Positions 5,319 to 49,818 of a DNA stretch of 49,818 bases are shown piece by piece. Within the stretch, counting starts at the first letter, position 1. Each line of letters begins with the position of its first letter. The translations under genes were made by a program, and so were the position numbers. The stretch spans positions 1-49,818 of the forward strand of contig QIFG01000036.1 of assembly GCA_003228735.1 (NCBI GenBank), written 5' to 3'. Below the pieces are notes generated by a model. It was given only the letters and a program-made list of their open reading frames with translations, had not been told where the DNA came from and ran no database searches. The stretch is from Zetaproteobacteria bacterium (GTDB lineage Bacteria > Pseudomonadota > Zetaproteobacteria > Mariprofundales > Mariprofundaceae).

Positions 5319-7294
5319 TCGTCTCCAGCCGTCACAGGCTGTTTGTCGGGCTGGGCCTTTTGCTGTGCAGACTGGCTCTGTTCACCGTTACCGGCCGGCC
5401 TGCGCCGCCTGCGCCTGCGCTTGCGCTGTGGACGTTCCTGATCCGGTTTGCTGCCGTCAGCCGACTGTTGTGCATCAGCAGGTGTTTGCGGTTTACGGCC
5501 TGCCGTCTTTTCGCCGTCCTGCTGTGATCTCTGCTGATTCTTCTGGGTTTGCGATGGCCTGCGACCGCGACCGCCGCGGCTGCGCCTTCTCCTCGGCCGT
5601 TGTTCGTATTTCTCTTGCCTGGCCGGGCCAGCATTATCCTCTTCACCTGCACCAAAAAGTTTTTGCAGGAGTTTTTTGCCCCAGCCCGGCTCATCGGCAC
5701 TCTCTTGAGACGGAACACCAACAATGGGTTCGTTGGACTTGAGCCGGCGGCCGGAGCGGGCCGGCTTTTTTCCCTTGAGGGTGTCTTCCAGCACTTCGAC
5801 GCGCTGCTGGCCATCATCCGACCACTGTTTTTCGATACGGTAATGGGGAACCTCCAGATCCGGCCGAATCTGCAGATTGATCTGGATGCCGTAATTTTCC
5901 TCGATGCGCGCCACGTACTCGCGTTTGTTATTCATCAGGTATTCGCCGGTATCTGTCGGAACCTGAACGACGATCTTGGGGCCTTTTCCTAGTGCGGCAT
6001 GGTCTTCCATGCGGGTAAGCATTTGCAGGGCCATAGATTCCACCAGGCGGACGCGTCCGCGCCCTGTGCATCTCGGGCAGGTTTGGGTGGTGGCCTCTCG
6101 CACGGACAGGCGCAGGCGTTGACGGGACATTTCCAGCAGCCCAAATCGGGAAATGCGGGTGATCTGTACGCGGGCCTTGTCTTGTTTGCAGGCGGCGCGC
6201 AGTTCCTCTTCGACCTTCTGCGCATGCTTCCTCGAAGCCATATCAATAAAATCGATCACTATGAGGCCGCCGATATCACGGATGCGAAGTTGCCGGGCGA
6301 TTTCACGGGCCGCTTCGATATTCGTAGCCAGGGCGGTGTCATCGATATGCTTGGCCGAGGTGGAGCGGCCGGAGTTTACGTCGATCGAGGTCAGTGCCTC
6401 AGTCGGGTCGAAAACAATGGCGCCGCCGGAGGGGAGGCGCACTTCGCGTTCGTGAATCTCCTCACACTGATCCTCGATGCCGTAATGGCGAAAGATCGGT
6501 TTCTTGCCACGATACAGCTTGACCAGTTTTTCCTTGCCTGGAATAACAGCATGCACGAACTGTTTGGTGCGCTGATAGATATCGTGCTTATCCACCCAGA
6601 TTTCATCAATGTCATCGCTGAAATGATCGCGGATGGCGCGGGTAGCCAGGTCGCCATCCAGATAGATGAAGGATGGCGAAGGGGCGGATTCGCCCTTGAT
6701 GCGAATCTCATCCCACAGCCTTTGCAGATAAGAGAAATCGCGCTGCAGGGCGGTCAGGGTCTGATCCTTGCCGGCGGTGCGTACGATAAGGCCCATGTTC
6801 TCGGGAACTTCGAGTTCCGCCAGAATCTGTTTCATGGAGCGGCGATCCTCGTCCGACAGTTTGCGCGAGATGCCAATACGGGTCGTGTTCGGGCTGAACA
6901 CCAGATAGCGGCCTGCCAGTGAAATATATGTGGTGAGCGCGGCGCCCTTAGTGCCGCGTTCTTCCTTGACTACCTGTATGAGAACGGATTGTTTGTTTTC
7001 CAGCACATCCTGAATGTTGGCCTTGCGCGGATCGGTATCCGCAGTGCCTCCCTTCCAGTAATCCGGGTGGATTTCACCAAGTGGCAGAAAGCCCTGCCGG
7101 CTGGAGCCGTATTCAACAAACGCCGCCTGCAGGCTTGCCTCAACCTTGGTGATTGTGCCTTTGTATATATTGCTTTTGGTTTGGATTCTGTCGGAGGACT
7201 CGATGTCCAGTTCCTGCAGATATCCGTCTTCGACGATGGCGACCCGGGCTTCTTCCGGGTGCGCGGCATTGACGAGCATGAGTTTTTTCTTCAC
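5315..7294 (-). CDS. rne: Ribonuclease E/G family protein (RNase E-like)
   Basis: A 659-residue endoribonuclease involved in mRNA turnover and rRNA/tRNA processing. The order is an S1 domain (residues about 35-120, including VEYGSSRQGFLPL), an RNase H-like/5' sensor region, the catalytic metal-binding aspartates Asp305 (SIDVNSG) and Asp348 (VIDFIDM), and the zinc-link CPRCTGRG with Cys406 and Cys409. The tail beyond residue about 515 is low complexity and extremely basic (runs of Arg around 575-590 and 625-635). It is longer than RNase G and much shorter than E. coli RNase E, so this is probably a compact RNase E with a reduced degradosome/RNA-binding scaffold. Start is GTG with AGGA upstream at proper spacing. 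Confidence 0.94.
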   Translation of the reverse strand: MKKKLMLVNAAHPEEARVAIVEDGYLQELDIESSDRIQTKSNIYKGTITKVEASLQAAFVEYGSSRQGFLPLGEIHPDYWKGGTADTDPRKANIQDVLENKQSVLIQVVKEERGTKGAALTTYISLAGRYLVFSPNTTRIGISRKLSDEDRRSMKQILAELEVPENMGLIVRTAGKDQTLTALQRDFSYLQRLWDEIRIKGESAPSPSFIYLDGDLATRAIRDHFSDDIDEIWVDKHDIYQRTKQFVHAVIPGKEKLVKLYRGKKPIFRHYGIEDQCEEIHEREVRLPSGGAIVFDPTEALTSIDVNSGRSTSAKHIDDTALATNIEAAREIARQLRIRDIGGLIVIDFIDMASRKHAQKVEEELRAACKQDKARVQITRISRFGLLEMSRQRLRLSVREATTQTCPRCTGRGRVRLVESMALQMLTRMEDHAALGKGPKIVVQVPTDTGEYLMNNKREYVARIEENYGIQINLQIRPDLEVPHYRIEKQWSDDGQQRVEVLEDTLKGKKPARSGRRLKSNEPIVGVPSQESADEPGWGKKLLQKLFGAGEEDNAGPARQEKYEQRPRRRRSRGGRGRRPSQTQKNQQRSQQDGEKTAGRKPQTPADAQQSADGSKPDQERPQRKRRRRRRRPAGNGEQSQSAQQKAQPDKQPVTAGDE

Positions 7295-7505
7295 GCCATT
7301 TCCTGTTCGTCGCCCGGAGGTTCATATACGAAAAGACACTGTCCCGGGGATGCGGGGCAGGTGTAAACAACTATGGTCTTTCTCACCGGCTCTCAGCCAT
7401 TTTGCAGGCCGGACGCCAGTATGAACTTCAGGGCGAAACCTTTTAATTTCCCACAGGCTCAACACGCGAAACGCTTCCTACATTCGATCCGTGACTTGCA
7501 CGTTC

Positions 7506-7540
7506 CCGGCCCTGTAAGCTTGAGTTCCTCAAGGGGCCGG
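7506..7540. other. Strong composite hairpin in the rne-rluC divergent intergenic region
   Basis: The 335-bp region between the divergent rne and rluC-type genes (7295-7629) contains a two-tier hairpin. The outer stem is CCGGCCC (7506-7512) with GGGCCGG (7534-7540); the inner stem is CTTGAG (7519-7524) with CTCAAG (7528-7533), closed by a TTC loop. No T-run follows on either strand, so it is not a simple terminator. It could be a 5' UTR structure of either gene, since rne leaders are known to be structured and autoregulated in enterobacteria. Nothing else recognisable was seen in this gap. Confidence 0.4.
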
Positions 7541-7629
7541 ATGGTTATAGCACTCCAAAATTCGCGCGGAGCTTGCCTGAATTAACGGCGCAGACTAACG
7601 AAAAGGGGCATGGTTTGGCAAGTTTGCAG

Positions 7630-9840: not shown

Positions 9841-9942
9841 TTTTCTAGAAGCCTTTTCATCATGGCCGGAGATGCCGAAGCGGCGGGCGAGTTCGGCAAG
9901 CACGTCGTCAGCAGACAGGCCACGGGCTGCAAGCATCACCAT
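9841..9942 (-). pseudogene. Displaced 3' end of hisE (34 codons)
   Basis: These 102 bp match 12106-12207, the last 34 codons of the intact hisE, at 89 of 102 positions in the same orientation. The encoded peptide begins [14 protein letters not shown] and ends HDEKASRK. It differs from the intact HisE by a single residue (Arg for Lys), while 10 of the 13 nucleotide differences are synonymous. The hisE stop codon is absent, and the frame continues through the neighbouring repeat to a TGA that overlaps the HIT start. The upstream edge abuts the stop codon of the restriction endonuclease gene. It looks like the end of a formerly functional hisE, not random debris. Confidence 0.85.
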
Positions 9943-10841
9943 CAGTCAACCATCTCCCATAACGCCGAGCAGAAAAGCTTATCGATGGTGTCGATGTGCT
10001 GTCTAAGGAAAGGGTCTGTTTGCATATTTGGGCGAATATCACAATAGAACACGCCATCCAGTGGATTTAGCTTGACCGTGTATCCTTTGAAGTGTCCAGG
10101 AAGAAACGTCGCGCTAACCCCGTATTTGTTCTCCGCCTTAACATTCTTTCTCTGAATGTCGTTCAGAAAAATCGCGAAATGTGGGGTGTCTGTTTCGGTG
10201 ATGCGGTTATAGAGGAACTTATCCATGAAAATCTTATCAATGCGGTCTTTGCTCGATGTCTTCACAGACCCAATGGCTTTGATCAACTCGCCGCTTTCAA
10301 CAACGAGGTCATGCTGATAGTTCATGTTGAACTGCACTTTGCCATCAACCTTGATAGGCACCTGGACATTTCCGCTTCTGCATTGAATCCCAAGGCGCTT
10401 GATAAGTAGAAGGATCAACCTCTCGAAAAGATCGCCATTGACCTTCCGAGCGCGGTTTGATTCGCCTGCTGGAAGAGCATCAAGCGCAGATCCAATTGAT
10501 TGTTGGATTGTGTAAATCGAATTACAAAGTCGCCGCCTTGACGCATGGTCATCAGCGGGAAGGTCTTTAGCTCCATCGAGCGTAGGCAGAAACTCTTGCG
10601 TCACTTGAACAACATCGTCTACACCATACATGAGATTAGAATTAATCGGGCGAGTGATATTGAAGTTCCCGTTTTTACGGTATTGAAAAAAACGGTAGTG
10701 ATTCTCATTTTGTGAAACAATCGTTGCCTGAACCCCATCAGCCAAGAACTCAAGAAATTTTGCGGTGAAATCCAAGTAATGTTGGACAGTGCCGAACTGC
10801 TCTTTGTTGGCAGCAGTTGCGACTAACTTCTTCAAACTCAT
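9942..10841 (-). CDS. Putative type II restriction endonuclease
   Basis: A 299-residue protein encoded directly downstream of a DNA methyltransferase with a 4-bp ATGA overlap, the standard arrangement of a type II restriction-modification pair. I do not recognise the specificity family. A segment near residues 185-225 ([22 protein letters not shown], with downstream lysines) could contain a degenerate PD-(D/E)xK nuclease core, but this is weak. The stop codon TGA at 9942-9944 sits at the edge of the displaced hisE end. Base composition is more AT-rich than hisI-hisE, consistent with acquisition. The assignment rests mainly on context. Confidence 0.68.
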
Positions 10842-11779
10842 CTGATGCTCTCTCGTCGGGCTGCGGTCTTGCGATCAAGTTCGATCCAATATTCCTTTGT
10901 TCGGCGCTGAACGTTTTGCAACCTTTCGATGGCCCAGTTGTTGTATTCGGCGGAAAGATCACAGCCCGCCCACTTTCGGTTAAGCTGCTCTGCTACAACA
11001 AGCGTCGTGCCCGATCCAGAGAAGGGGTCGATGACTAAATCTCCTTCAAGCGATGCCCCTAGAACCAGCCTTCGAAGTAATTCCTCAGGCTTCTGCGTTG
11101 GATGCGGGGTTTTTTCTCCCATACCGTTGCAGGTTGTCGGTATTTCCAGCACGTCCTTCGGCTTTGCTCCCTTGGGATGAGGCGTCCAGTTATCCCGCTT
11201 CTTACCGTTGCCGAAGTTGCTGGTTTCTGCCTGCGGATGCGATGGATATTTCAATGTGTGAGTACCATACGGAATCCGGGCGTCATCCTGGTTCAAACGG
11301 AACTTGTTCGTTTTTCGGAGGTGTAAGATGCTCTCGTGAGAGCGTCCCCAATCCTTTCCAAGATTGGCCTTGTTGAGGTAGTGCCAGACAAGCCAACGGC
11401 ATGCGGTGAAGTAGCGAGAAGCGGGGTGCTTAATGTCTGCAAGAATTTCTGAGAAGCCGCAGATATAGAGCGAACCAGTGGGTTTCAAAGCTCTGGAAGC
11501 CGGGCCGATCCATTGCATCGACCAGTTTATATAAGCCTCCTGGCTCTCAAAGTTGTCCCACTCTGCCTTTTTTAGGTTGTAAGGCGGATCGGCAAAGATC
11601 AGATCCACCGACTCAGGTGTCAGAGATGCAAGCCATTCAATTGAATCACCTTGGTACAGCCTCCCGTGGGGGTGCTCAAACTGGCATCGGAGTCCAATTT
11701 TAGACTCCCCAATCTCGAACACCTGTCCCGGAGCAGTATCGGGGAATAGAGGAAGAGGTTGCGGAGACCTATTGGTCAT
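10838..11779 (-). CDS. Site-specific DNA methyltransferase, beta class (probable N6-adenine)
   Basis: A protein of about 313 residues. Motif IV, DPPYNL (in FADPPYNLKKAEWDNF), lies in the N-terminal third, and motif I, DPFSGSGTT, lies near the C-terminus. That order defines the beta class of amino-methyltransferases, and DPPY favours adenine N6 over cytosine N4 methylation. HPTQKPEELL before motif I is also typical. It is expected to protect host DNA against the endonuclease encoded by the overlapping downstream gene. The start could be ATG at 11779 or a TTG three codons earlier; neither has a strong ribosome site. The recognition sequence cannot be read from the protein. Confidence 0.9.
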   Translation of the reverse strand: MTNRSPQPLPLFPDTAPGQVFEIGESKIGLRCQFEHPHGRLYQGDSIEWLASLTPESVDLIFADPPYNLKKAEWDNFESQEAYINWSMQWIGPASRALKPTGSLYICGFSEILADIKHPASRYFTACRWLVWHYLNKANLGKDWGRSHESILHLRKTNKFRLNQDDARIPYGTHTLKYPSHPQAETSNFGNGKKRDNWTPHPKGAKPKDVLEIPTTCNGMGEKTPHPTQKPEELLRRLVLGASLEGDLVIDPFSGSGTTLVVAEQLNRKWAGCDLSAEYNNWAIERLQNVQRRTKEYWIELDRKTAARRESIR

Positions 11780-11846
11780 TGCAATCAATTACTACTGTTT
11801 TTCTTGTCATGACAGAGTTGATAGGCGGAGAAATCCATGAGTAGAG

Positions 11847-12023
11847 TCAGCCCCTGTTACCGTAGGATTGCCATCCACGGGTGTCATGCGCCTGTTCCCA
11901 TGAATTGGCTTCGTCTTCCGCATCCGATTGGTTGGCGCGAATCAATTGCCGAAGCGCCCCGTTGGCCAGAAGCTTGTCGGCATGCTCATCAAGACGGATG
12001 CTGGTAGTGGATGTTTGCGCCAC
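11847..12023 (-). CDS. Small ribbon-helix-helix-like protein upstream of the R-M genes (possible controller or antitoxin)
   Basis: A 58-residue ORF with GTG start and a near-perfect AGGAGG (12029-12034) five bases upstream, so it is very likely translated. The N-terminus VAQTSTTSIRLDEHADKL has the alternating pattern of the beta-strand in ribbon-helix-helix DNA-binding proteins (TTxIRLDE). The rest, ALRQLIRANQSDAEDEANSW, is an acidic helical tail. It lies 67 nt before the methyltransferase gene on the same strand, where restriction-modification systems often carry a small controller gene. Classical C proteins are helix-turn-helix, so this would be an unusual type. Alternatively it is the antitoxin half of a decayed toxin-antitoxin pair. 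Confidence 0.5.
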   Translation of the reverse strand: MAQTSTTSIRLDEHADKLLANGALRQLIRANQSDAEDEANSWEQAHDTRGWQSYGNRG

Positions 12024-12102
12024 GAACGCCTCCTGCAACACTTTGTGTTACTTTGGTGAAGGTTTATCGTTTTTGCAAGCAAGCCCAGCTTGCTACTCCT
12101 GA

Positions 12103-12432
12103 TTATTTCCTAGACGCTTTTTCATCATGGCCGGAGATACCGAAACGACGCGCGAGTTCGGCAAGCACGTCGTCAGCCGACAGTCCTTTGGCGGCAAGCA
12201 TCACCATGGTGTGAAACCACAGGTCGGCAGTCTCGTAGATGATTTGCTCGCGGTCGCCATTCTTGGCGGCAATGATGGTTTCGGTGGCCTCTTCGCCGAC
12301 TTTCTCCAGAATCTTGTCCATGCCCTTGTCGTAGAGCGAGGCGACATAGGACGCATCCGGGCTATCGCCCTTGCGCGCTTCCAGCACTTTCGTCAGTTCT
12401 TTCAGAATGTCGGTGCTCGCTGGGTTGTTCAC
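12103..12432 (-). CDS. hisE: Phosphoribosyl-ATP pyrophosphatase HisE
   Basis: A 109-residue enzyme hydrolysing phosphoribosyl-ATP to phosphoribosyl-AMP, step 2 of histidine synthesis. It has the all-alpha MazG-like pyrophosphohydrolase pattern with acidic metal-binding residues ([18 protein letters not shown], then YETADLWFH). Length is normal. It overlaps hisI by 4 bp (ATGA), so the two are coupled. The last 34 codons are duplicated downstream, beyond the restriction-modification block, so the present 3' end may have come with the insertion. The rest of the pathway is encoded 21 kb away in the murA-his operon. Confidence 0.95.
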
Positions 12433-47046: not shown

Positions 47047-47834
47047 GATTTCGGGAATGTTCCGTTTCGCACATCAGCAGCCCAACGGCCAATGGCATCC
47101 GATATGATTTCACGCAAGTTAGCATAAGCCGGAGCGAACGACGGGTTTTTCTCCGACAGGCCGAGCAGATCGTGCCAGACCAGAACCTGTGCGTCACAAC
47201 CTGGGCCTGCGCCGATACCGACCGTTGGGATGCCAAGTTTCCCGGTGATTTTTGCCGCCAGGCCTTCGGGAATGCATTCCAGCACAAGGGCTCCGGCTCC
47301 GGCCTGTTCCACCGCCTGCGCATCGGCCAATAGCTGCGCCTGCGCATCTTCGGTTTTCCCCTGCATTCCATATACACCAAGCTTTTTGATGGATTGCGGC
47401 GTCAGGCCGATATGGCCGACCACGGCGATGCCGCGCTCGGTCAGGAATCGGATGGTTTCCGCCATATGCGCGCCGCCCTCAAGCTTCACGGCATCGCAGC
47501 CCGTTTCCTGCATGACGCGCACGGATGTTTTAACAGCCTGCTCCGGCGATTCCTGGTAACTGCCAAAGGGGAGGTCGCAGACCACCCAGGCGGTTTTATT
47601 GCCGCGCACCACGGCTTTCGTGTGGTGAATCATGTCTTCAAGCATGACGGGGATGGTTGTGTCGTAACCGAGACAGACCATGCCTAAGGAATCACCGACC
47701 AGCAGCACGTCGGCCCCGGCGGCTTCGGCAATGGATGCACTGGCGGCGTCATAAGCCGTCAGCCATACGGTTTTTTCGCCATTCTGCTTGGCGCGCAAAA
47801 GCGTCGCCGCAGTGACTGGTTTCTTATCAATCAT
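47043..47834 (-). CDS. panB: 3-methyl-2-oxobutanoate hydroxymethyltransferase PanB
   Basis: A 263-residue TIM-barrel enzyme producing ketopantoate. Signatures: LTAYDAASASIAEAAG, LVGDSLGMVCLGY with metal-binding Asp, GCDAVKLEGGAHMAE, GHIGLTPQS and VGIGAGPGCDAQVLVWHD. First gene of the pan operon. Its upstream region now carries the left direct repeat of an inserted cassette, 43 bp before the start codon. Confidence 0.97.
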   Translation of the reverse strand: MIDKKPVTAATLLRAKQNGEKTVWLTAYDAASASIAEAAGADVLLVGDSLGMVCLGYDTTIPVMLEDMIHHTKAVVRGNKTAWVVCDLPFGSYQESPEQAVKTSVRVMQETGCDAVKLEGGAHMAETIRFLTERGIAVVGHIGLTPQSIKKLGVYGMQGKTEDAQAQLLADAQAVEQAGAGALVLECIPEGLAAKITGKLGIPTVGIGAGPGCDAQVLVWHDLLGLSEKNPSFAPAYANLREIISDAIGRWAADVRNGTFPKS

Positions 47835-47876
47835 TCCGCCTTCCGCTTCGGTCTCAAACGAGTACCGTCTTCAGGA

Positions 47877-47915
47877 TTCGGCGAATCTTACACAGGAGTA
47901 TGTGAATTGGCTATC
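47877..47915 (+). repeat. Left direct repeat of the terminal cassette
   Basis: It begins TTCGGCGAATCTTACACAGG. It matches 49660-49698 at 34 of 39 positions in the same orientation, with the first 20 bases identical. The two copies bracket the low-GC cassette with the small protein and the HQxxH protein. Confidence 0.7.
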
Positions 47916-47972
47916 CGGTATTAATTAAGAGTCTTGAACCGACATCTCGCCAATCTTCAACGAATCAAATTT

Positions 47973-47998
47973 GTCAATACGTAATATTACGTATTGAC
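47973..47998. promoter_or_regulatory. Perfect 26-bp palindrome, ATACGTA-N4-TACGTAT site 2
   Basis: The sequence is its own reverse complement over 26 bp (GTCA at one end, TGAC at the other), with half-sites ATACGTA and TACGTAT separated by ATAT. It lies 120 bp before the small-protein gene and 139 bp from panB. The half-sites are identical to site 1 at 27088-27107. A dimeric repressor operator is the simplest reading. Confidence 0.62.
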
Positions 47999-48118
47999 TC
48001 CTTTAGCAGTTTGCGACGATTCTGAATGTTGCGCAGGGAAGAGGGGAGTGAGAATACGTGAAACAAGATCTGACCCTCGAGGCTTGTGCATATACTATAA
48101 ACAGCATGGAGTATACTT

Positions 48119-48385
48119 ATGGCAATAGTAACAGATATACACCCAACAACTAAGCATAAAGCACAGGAGATGTCGCTTGATGAGTTCATGAAAAGTGCGG
48201 GGACTGCGGAGGTCAAAGAGTTAAGCAACCTCATGAGCCGCTTCAATGGTGGCACCTACATGGCCTGTCATGTCAGGTTCTACGAAGCAACCGGAGTATG
48301 GATTAAGGAGTTAGTTCCGGTCTTCCAGAAAATGGATGCCATGGTCGCGCTTGGCGAACCTGTTCGCCCACAAGAGCTGACTTAG
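48119..48385 (+). CDS. Small protein of the terminal cassette (RiPP precursor candidate)
   Basis: An 88-residue protein of unknown family, ATG preceded by GGAG and a TATACT-rich stretch. Residues 1-40 are polar and helical (HPTTKHKAQEMSLDEFMKS); the second half is richer in aromatic residues and methionine (NGGTYMACHVRFYEATGVW, then VFQKMDAMVALGEP). No Cys-rich or repetitive core is obvious, so a precursor role is only a hypothesis from its place: a short gene in front of a peptide-modification-like gene, separated from it by a strong hairpin. It could equally be a partner or regulator of the HQxxH protein. Confidence 0.5.
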   Translation: MAIVTDIHPTTKHKAQEMSLDEFMKSAGTAEVKELSNLMSRFNGGTYMACHVRFYEATGVWIKELVPVFQKMDAMVALGEPVRPQELT

Positions 48386-48399
48386 AGCATAGGTGGCGC

Positions 48400-48431
48400 C
48401 CGCTGCTGCACCAATAAAGGTGCAGCAGCGG
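48400..48431 (+). promoter_or_regulatory. 13-bp perfect hairpin between the two cassette genes
   Basis: CCGCTGCTGCACC (48400-48412) and GGTGCAGCAGCGG (48419-48431) enclose AATAAA. There is no T-run after it, so it is more likely an mRNA-stabilising or partial attenuating structure than a full terminator. Such hairpins often lie behind highly expressed precursor genes. Confidence 0.6.
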
Positions 48432-48460
48432 AACTTCCTGATTAAGGCGATTTAATACTT

Positions 48461-49642
48461 TTGAAAGATAACACACTCAACTGGGCATGCTGGCTTCCCA
48501 GAGTTCACGAAGGTCAACACAATCTGTCTCTTTTATCGAGAAAGATTATTTTCAATGTCAGGCTTGATCTGTTTGAGAGGCTCGACTTTGAAGATGATTT
48601 CACCTTCCTGGAGCCGCTGCTGTTTTCCGCATTTGCCAGCCCGGAAGCAGCCGTAGAAATGGAAAGTTTAGTTGTTGGATATATTTGCAGTGAGTACTCT
48701 CCTTTCAAATTTTCTGTGCGATCTAACAAGGATCAAACTCTGGTTATTCCAGCAATTGGTTCCCGAAAATTCGCACAAGAAGAGATGAGCCTGTTGGCTG
48801 AAATAACCGATGAAAACCGGCATTTGGTCGATATTGGCTCTTCGGATAACAACGAACTCTGTTTTGTACCCGATCTAAAAACCAGTATCGATAACTTTAC
48901 TATCTACCAGGAGATTCACTACCTCCTATACCCTCTGTTCAAGTTTGTTGATGAAACGGTAGGGCCTGTTTGCAAAAAGGATCTTGTTGGGGTTAAGTAC
49001 TCACAATTATTAGAACGTGGATTGAAGCTGATATCTACAGCTTATCCCGATTTTTTTTCTGCTTTATCGTCAGTCACACGAGGATTTCTGGTGTTTCGAC
49101 AACACGGCATGAATTCATACTATTCGGAATCGGCGCATGGCATATCATTTCTTTCCGTACCGGATTTTGTGAGCATTCCCTATTTTGTGGAGGATATAGC
49201 GCATCAGTGCGGCCACATTATATTTAATTCCATGTTTTTCAGACATGAGGAGCTGCTTGCTGATCCTGAACGCTCAATCTCACAATTTAGTCACGATCCG
49301 GAAGATTCAAGGAGTGCCTTCATTCTGTTCCATGCCGTCTTTACCGAACATGTGATTGCTATATGTCTATTGTCATTCCTTGAAAGTGATCAGTGCAGCG
49401 ATGAGGAAAGAGAAGAGACAGTTGGCCGCCTTGCATTTATTATGAAGAAATATGAAATCGACCTTCATAGCTTAAAGCAGGTGGACGGGCTGACAAAAGT
49501 TGGCGAAATTATGCGTACAGAATTGGAGGGGTCTTTCAAAAAACTGTATTCGTATTGCCATTACCAAATCGCAGATATTAGCCTGGCAGGCCAGCCATAC
49601 AATTTTGATTTCAACAAATACAAAGAGATTAATCTAAGATAA
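48461..49642 (+). CDS. HQxxH protein resembling HExxH-type peptide beta-hydroxylases
   Basis: A 393-residue protein with TTG start. The C-terminal half follows the pattern of HExxH-motif peptide modification proteins: SESAHGISFLSVPDFVS (residues about 222-238), then DIAHQCGHIIFN with His248 and His252, DPEDSRSAFILFHAVFTEH (279-297) in the place of the usual DPRP...LHG segment, with His291 and His297 as candidate further ligands. The glutamate of HExxH is replaced by Gln249. The first 200 residues have no recognised domain. Family members modify ribosomally made peptides in an iron/2-oxoglutarate-dependent way; that is family knowledge and is unproven here. AT-rich codon use. Confidence 0.5.
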   Translation: MKDNTLNWACWLPRVHEGQHNLSLLSRKIIFNVRLDLFERLDFEDDFTFLEPLLFSAFASPEAAVEMESLVVGYICSEYSPFKFSVRSNKDQTLVIPAIGSRKFAQEEMSLLAEITDENRHLVDIGSSDNNELCFVPDLKTSIDNFTIYQEIHYLLYPLFKFVDETVGPVCKKDLVGVKYSQLLERGLKLISTAYPDFFSALSSVTRGFLVFRQHGMNSYYSESAHGISFLSVPDFVSIPYFVEDIAHQCGHIIFNSMFFRHEELLADPERSISQFSHDPEDSRSAFILFHAVFTEHVIAICLLSFLESDQCSDEEREETVGRLAFIMKKYEIDLHSLKQVDGLTKVGEIMRTELEGSFKKLYSYCHYQIADISLAGQPYNFDFNKYKEINLR

Positions 49643-49659
49643 CCGATGAAAGCTCAAAG

Positions 49660-49698
49660 TTCGGCGAATCTTACACAGGGCTGTGTGATTTTGCTATC
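49660..49698 (+). repeat. Right direct repeat of the terminal cassette
   Basis: It starts TTCGGCGAATCTTACACAGG, identical to the left copy at 47877 over 20 bases, then diverges moderately up to GCTATC. It lies 18 bp after the stop codon of the HQxxH gene. Confidence 0.7.
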
Positions 49699-49729
49699 AG
49701 CTTTGCTTTGTGAACAAGGCTGACGTCTA

Positions 49730-49818
49730 GGGAAGCTCTGAACAAGTCTCACATGGCCGCGACAACGGCTTTGCGGGATGGGATGCAAGGCGGGAGGCGA
49801 AATGCATGGTGGTTCCAT
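49730..49818. mobile_element. Possible IS/MITE end, cut by window edge
   Basis: GGAAGCTCTGAACAAGTCTC after CTAG resembles terminal inverted repeats of common proteobacterial insertion sequences. The remaining bases are non-coding. The other end would be outside the window, so this remains tentative. Confidence 0.35.

Follow-up and report, generated by a model that had tools for sequence, protein, structure and literature searches.

Upstream of panB, at the end of a zetaproteobacterial contig, a pair of genes lies between two direct repeats. The locus raises two questions: what does the pair encode, and does it move as a unit? The DNA analysed here, which we call the window, is 49,818 nucleotides long and represents one entire contig out of the 100 that make up a 1.88 Mb assembly. 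Features of the locus are collected in Table 1, in which homologous loci carry L numbers.

Table 1. Features of the two-gene locus, with positions in the window.
Feature	Position	Strand	Remark
Left direct repeat, 39 nt	47877..47915	.	directly upstream of Zeta-pan RNA, at the panB promoter position
Perfect 26-nt palindrome GTCAATACGTAATATTACGTATTGAC	47973..47998	.	possible operator, or minus-strand terminator
88-aa small protein, putative precursor peptide	48119..48385	+	homologues beside HQ enzymes in L020, L021, L043, L082 and L083
Invariant Cys50-His51 codons of the small protein	48266..48271	+	predicted modification site
13-bp perfect hairpin, intergenic	48400..48431	+	possible attenuator
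HQxxH enzyme (393 aa), a relative of aKG-HExxH peptide beta-hydroxylases	48461..49642	+	TTG start
HQCGH motif codons, residues 248-252	49202..49216	+	
His291 codon, invariant	49331..49333	+	probable third metal ligand
Right direct repeat, 39 nt	49660..49698	.	34/39 identical to left repeat

The first-pass annotation had described the repeats (34 of 39 positions identical), the open reading frames of 88 and 393 residues that they enclose, a shift in base composition and the motif His248-Gln249-Cys250-Gly251-His252 in the larger protein, and all four descriptions proved accurate. Both reading frames are intact. The repeats share an exact core of 20 nt, which is not expected by chance in sequences 1.8 kb apart; this core occurs at only two sites in the 1.88 Mb genome, both flanking the cassette, and is absent from 74 other genomes when up to one mismatch is allowed. 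GC content between the repeats is 0.432, as compared with 0.563 in panBC and 0.544 in the window as a whole, and about 0.1% of stretches of equal size are as low. Two further elements had been overlooked: the 26-nt palindrome that precedes the small-protein gene and is unique in the window, where the runner-up has 16 nt, and the hairpin between the two genes, which is the longest short-loop stem in the window and has a folding z of −4.9.

On the panB side, a Zeta-pan RNA (RF03111) was detected before panB at 47,832–47,878 on the minus strand (45 bits, E 2e-6, under the gathering score), and the same RNA precedes panB in six relatives; its presence indicates a zetaproteobacterium. The RNA terminates at the left repeat, which therefore sits at the position of the panB promoter; the repeat separates the RNA from the cassette, at a place where relatives have the panB promoter region. 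On the other side the contig stops 120 nt past the right repeat, at a point that lies within a dispersed repeat. This dispersed repeat (49,727–49,818) has 17 matches in the genome and turns up in some relatives too; at a number of sites a second, inverted end lies 0.2–0.3 kb away, an arrangement that is MITE-like.

Other identities for the 39-nt repeats were considered and set aside. A genome-wide element family is ruled out by the presence of two copies only, and the GTTRRRY/RYYYAAC ends of integron attC sites are missing, as judged by eye only. A resemblance of the repeat to a PEP-CTERM promoter motif was likewise dropped, there being no further copies in the window.

What is the larger protein? 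HMM scans of both window proteins against NCBIfam, Pfam, PADLOC and PHROGs gave nothing useful, and a direct profile scan of the 393-aa protein yielded no NCBIfam match, TIGR04267 included. Scans of viral and genome collections with a single sequence as query turned up no relative, and weak single-query matches in Pseudomonadota genomes, of which one locus (L004) was inspected, were taken as chance. A scan of the genome collection with a small mixed alignment recovered seven relatives that are closer, of which Planctomycetota supplied two and Bacteroidota five (E-values of the candidate stretches 7e-46 to 3e-16), and profile searches added two further enzyme loci, L043 and L044. When the 393-aa query was aligned by hhalign with five TIGR04267 proteins from other genomes, the match covered residues 166–363 with a probability of 94% and an E-value, valid for that one comparison alone, of 1e-7; H248, H252, H291 and A292 are invariant in this alignment. 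Two of the relatives, L020 and L024, match TIGR04267 directly at E 8e-5 and 5e-5, with at most 23 bits, and the window protein and its relatives alike remain under the curated cut-off of 40 bits.

The structure points in the same direction. An AlphaFold2 model built on a ten-sequence alignment reached a pLDDT of 79 and a pTM of 0.83; prediction from the single sequence (pLDDT 39) was useless. A Foldseek search with the AlphaFold2 model returned only five PDB chains under E 0.001, four of them from the HExxH domain of ChlB (8s5f; best E 1.4e-9, probability 1.00) and the fifth from SjiH (22ob; E 2e-8). The model thus has the fold of the ChlB HExxH domain at moderate TM-scores of 0.5–0.6, although two of the ten sequences in its input alignment were ordinary HE members and the model is for that reason not fully independent of the aKG-HExxH family; the hhalign comparison is independent. 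Identity as a zincin peptidase is ruled out by Gln249 together with the fold search. The kinship with HExxH peptide beta-hydroxylases proposed at first pass is largely upheld by the fold and by the TIGR04267 matches of the relatives at about 5e-5, although the window protein itself misses that model; no unrelated family came up, the aKG-HExxH fold being the only one matched.

Glutamine in place of the signature glutamate is found in the window protein and in every homologue. The motif reads HQCGH in most of them, HQGGH in L043 and HQAGH in L083. These homologues are known from Planctomycetota, Bacteroidota and Alphaproteobacteria. All of them, across at least three phyla, keep the three histidines H248, H252 and H291, which are invariant in HE and HQ sequences alike, so that the putative metal site around His248 and His252 on which the hydroxylase proposal depended is conserved. 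R284, a candidate anchor for 2-oxoglutarate, is not conserved in L083. Ten HQ and six HE sequences form separate groups in a maximum-likelihood tree, at 99/99 support; L082 and L083 came to light only later and are absent from it. The window protein sits on a long branch, and its position within the HQ clade is tentative. Judged by these sequences, the HQ motif is the hallmark of a clade, as opposed to a mutation in a single protein, and the HQ proteins probably form a branch of the aKG-HExxH enzymes that has diverged and bears glutamine. A search of the literature available to us for an HQxxH peptide oxygenase found nothing relevant.

Loss of the signature glutamate from every member could also mean that the HQ protein descends from the aKG-HExxH enzymes but has lost all catalytic activity, and serves the small protein only as a binding partner (a chaperone, a carrier or an immunity protein) that leaves it unmodified. 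In zincin proteases the motif glutamate is the general base, and changing it to glutamine is a classical way to inactivate them. Nevertheless, a dead enzyme would not need the three candidate metal ligands, invariant over at least three phyla, and no other recognised modification enzyme was found near the peptide gene in the Bacteroidota loci L023, L024 and L026. We consider it unlikely that the protein has lost its activity.

The smaller gene is conserved together with the enzyme gene that adjoins it. Directly upstream of the planctomycete enzymes lie homologues of the 88-aa protein (blastp E ∼1e-10 in a search space of 1 Mb), with which it shares the segments M[TS]LxEF, CH and GxWIxELVPVFxKxD. 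By eye, the planctomycete proteins open with twin-arginine-like segments, MTRRKAMGSVAAS and SRRKAIRTVAAS, which the window version lacks. The Cys-His pair is invariant in nine aligned small proteins, peptides from Bacteroidota included. Among 294 Planctomycetota genomes, three gave a match to the enzyme profile, and it was these three, next to the enzyme, that the small-protein profile matched as well. As the earlier enzyme scan had already yielded two of them, the result is chiefly evidence against orphan copies of the small protein in these genomes. Searches that start from the small protein are a cleaner test of the pairing than this count. In viral contigs, the small-protein alignment led to L082, where a 407-aa HQCGH enzyme is encoded ∼20 nt downstream; in plasmids, the 88-aa protein led to Pseudorhodobacter turbinis NZ_CP039965.1 (L083; E 2e-3), in which the gene for a 285-aa HQAGH enzyme follows immediately downstream of the small-protein gene. 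Tested in both directions, the pair is therefore found elsewhere, and the failure of the small gene to co-occur with the enzyme gene, which would have spoken against the first-pass proposal, was not seen. We conclude that the two genes are a genuine conserved unit.

The context of the HQ enzymes in Bacteroidota bears on what this unit does. Clusters from Spirosoma (two genomes) and from one MAG each of Pseudarcicella and Cytophagales combine the enzyme with a 52–54-aa peptide (LSLxELKAK...GG...CH), a C39 peptidase–ABC exporter and HlyD. A GG leader accompanied by C39-ABC machinery for export and cleavage is RiPP architecture. At L044 (2272–12,055) the HQ enzyme lies beside full-length lantibiotic dehydratase and LanC-like genes and a C39 exporter; no recognisable precursor was found at this locus. 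The locus L022 is cut by a contig end. Metallo-beta-lactamase-fold proteins of secreted type were identified in two of the Bacteroidota clusters (L024 of Spirosoma lacussanchae, 6103–7575; L023, 2837–4225), and in the Cytophagales MAG (L026, 4448–5633) the HQ enzyme gene is split over two frames, as a broken gene or through an assembly error. In sequence, the Bacteroidota peptides show no significant match to the 88-aa protein, and a cross-group profile did not score clearly above shuffled sequences; their likeness in leader pattern and Cys-His pair is suggestive only.

We infer that the small protein is the substrate, and the strongest argument is provided by the Bacteroidota clusters, with their GG-leader peptides and C39 exporters. 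It might instead be a stable partner subunit or targeting factor of an enzyme that oxidises some other protein or a metabolite. The C-terminal segment GxWIxELVPVFxKxD is as conserved as the Cys-His region, which is unusual for a variable core peptide and would suit a subunit, as would the lack of an exporter next to the pair in the planctomycete loci and in the window, where neither an exporter nor a protease gene is visible beside the pair and the contig ends 176 nt past the enzyme gene. The Bacteroidota counterpart, however, is a GG-leader peptide encoded beside a C39 exporter, as is the arrangement for precursors, and we regard a role as subunit or targeting factor as quite improbable.

Does the pair move? 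The distribution of the HQ family is patchy: in its own class it was found in the window's genome only, among 78 genomes; it occurs in 3 of the 294 Planctomycetota sampled; and the 297 Bacteroidota sampled contained, besides the seed genome, a single other clear member and a match that was weak and partial. The flanking direct repeats and the shift in composition are features of a mobile cassette. Nevertheless, no integrase was found, in relatives synteny does not extend upstream of panB, which leaves no empty site for comparison, and around the pair in L020, L021, L024, L082 and L083 there are no direct repeats of at least 20 nt; movement as a cassette is therefore plausible only. The same window holds a restriction–modification pair at 9841–12,207 (N6/N4 DNA methylase at 10,841–11,788 and its partner at 9945–10,841, both on the minus strand), flanked by direct repeats of 102 nt (87%), of which the right copy falls within the 3′ end of a gene that we read as hisE. 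Its layout is similar to that of the HQ cassette, and both insertions look as if they had duplicated a terminal piece of the target gene.

Pairs of alphaproteobacterial type adjoin phage genes in L082 (1952–3449 of IMGVR_UViG_2924165586_000010), near a Mu-like repressor and a transposase, and in L083 (5935–7072), directly after genes for a phage head protease and head decoration protein. This setting would suit an accessory system of phages or prophages, of moron type, such as a toxin–antitoxin or defence pair. Such a role is very improbable, given that there was no PADLOC match, that no phage genes surround the window pair or the planctomycete pairs, and that no relative was found in 50,697 phage genomes.

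We believe it likely that the pair is a minimal RiPP-type post-translational modification system, in which an HQxxH metal oxygenase acts on the 88-aa precursor, and that HQ pairs probably constitute an undescribed RiPP-like family. The compact two-gene modification system suggested by the first-pass annotation has thus gained a conserved pair, a fold and a RiPP context in Bacteroidota, although its substrate and chemistry, like the cofactors, the modified residue, the role of the glutamine and the horizontal arrival of the pair, are what we infer. The 88-aa protein would be a ribosomal precursor, with an MSLDEF segment probably used for recognition, followed by Cys50-His51 and then by the conserved GxWIxELVPVF segment. 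The 393-aa protein would be a metal oxygenase of the aKG-HExxH fold, probably dependent on iron and 2-oxoglutarate, in which His248, His252 and His291 bind the metal and Gln249 replaces the family's glutamate. Its target would most likely be a residue at or near Cys50-His51. As the motif glutamate is the general base of zincin proteases, glutamine should remove hydrolysis and keep the metal-binding histidines; the replacement may in this way suppress the peptidase side reaction of HE enzymes with metal binding retained. The intergenic hairpin would be consistent with different expression levels of precursor and enzyme, and the palindrome with an operator.

A bolder version of this model is possible, although we hold it doubtful: the HQ clade may be a distinct class of metal oxygenase, in which the glutamine, usually with the cysteine that follows it, sets a different active site and chemistry. 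Enzymes of this class would oxidise the Cys-His pair of a widespread, undescribed precursor family to give a metal-binding or redox-active peptide, exported by Tat in Planctomycetota.

With HExxH zincin metalloproteases, the HQ protein has in common the two-histidine HxxxH helix, but the catalytic glutamate is glutamine in all HQ members and no zincin is among the significant structure matches. A second comparison is with the C39-exported GG-leader peptides of Bacteroidota (NHLP/bacteriocin type, with TIGR04149-like leaders), since LSLxELKAK...GG leaders and C39-ABC/HlyD genes adjoin HQ enzymes. In contrast to these systems, the window pair and the planctomycete pairs are without an adjoining exporter, the planctomycete small proteins start with a twin-arginine-like segment, and all keep a long conserved C-terminal part.

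The closest known systems are the aKG-HExxH peptide beta-hydroxylases (TIGR04267/IPR026337), represented by the ChlB HExxH domain (PDB 8s5f), BpmH, PflC/PosC and PesO. With iron and 2-oxoglutarate, the characterised members hydroxylate His, Asp, Phe, Gln or Pro residues of their precursor peptides, and PflC also cleaves the backbone oxidatively, or hydrolytically on truncated substrates (PMC12636437, PMC13060819). They have only recently been recognised as oxygenases, and the characterised members already bring several reactions. A clade that lacks the signature glutamate and is accompanied by one and the same partner protein offers a natural experiment on the role of that residue in the aKG-HExxH fold; the pair, a minimal two-gene system, lends itself to direct expression and measurement, and the partner's invariant Cys-His is a testable modification site. 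HQ members differ from the aKG-HExxH enzymes in having glutamine for the motif glutamate, in scoring under the family cut-off and in forming a separate clade, and their partners differ from the known precursors in belonging to an invariant Cys-His family that Pfam and NCBIfam do not recognise. Common to both are the fold, the HxxxH motif with a third histidine, a small precursor gene adjoining the enzyme gene and, on the HQ side in Bacteroidota, the context of a RiPP cluster.
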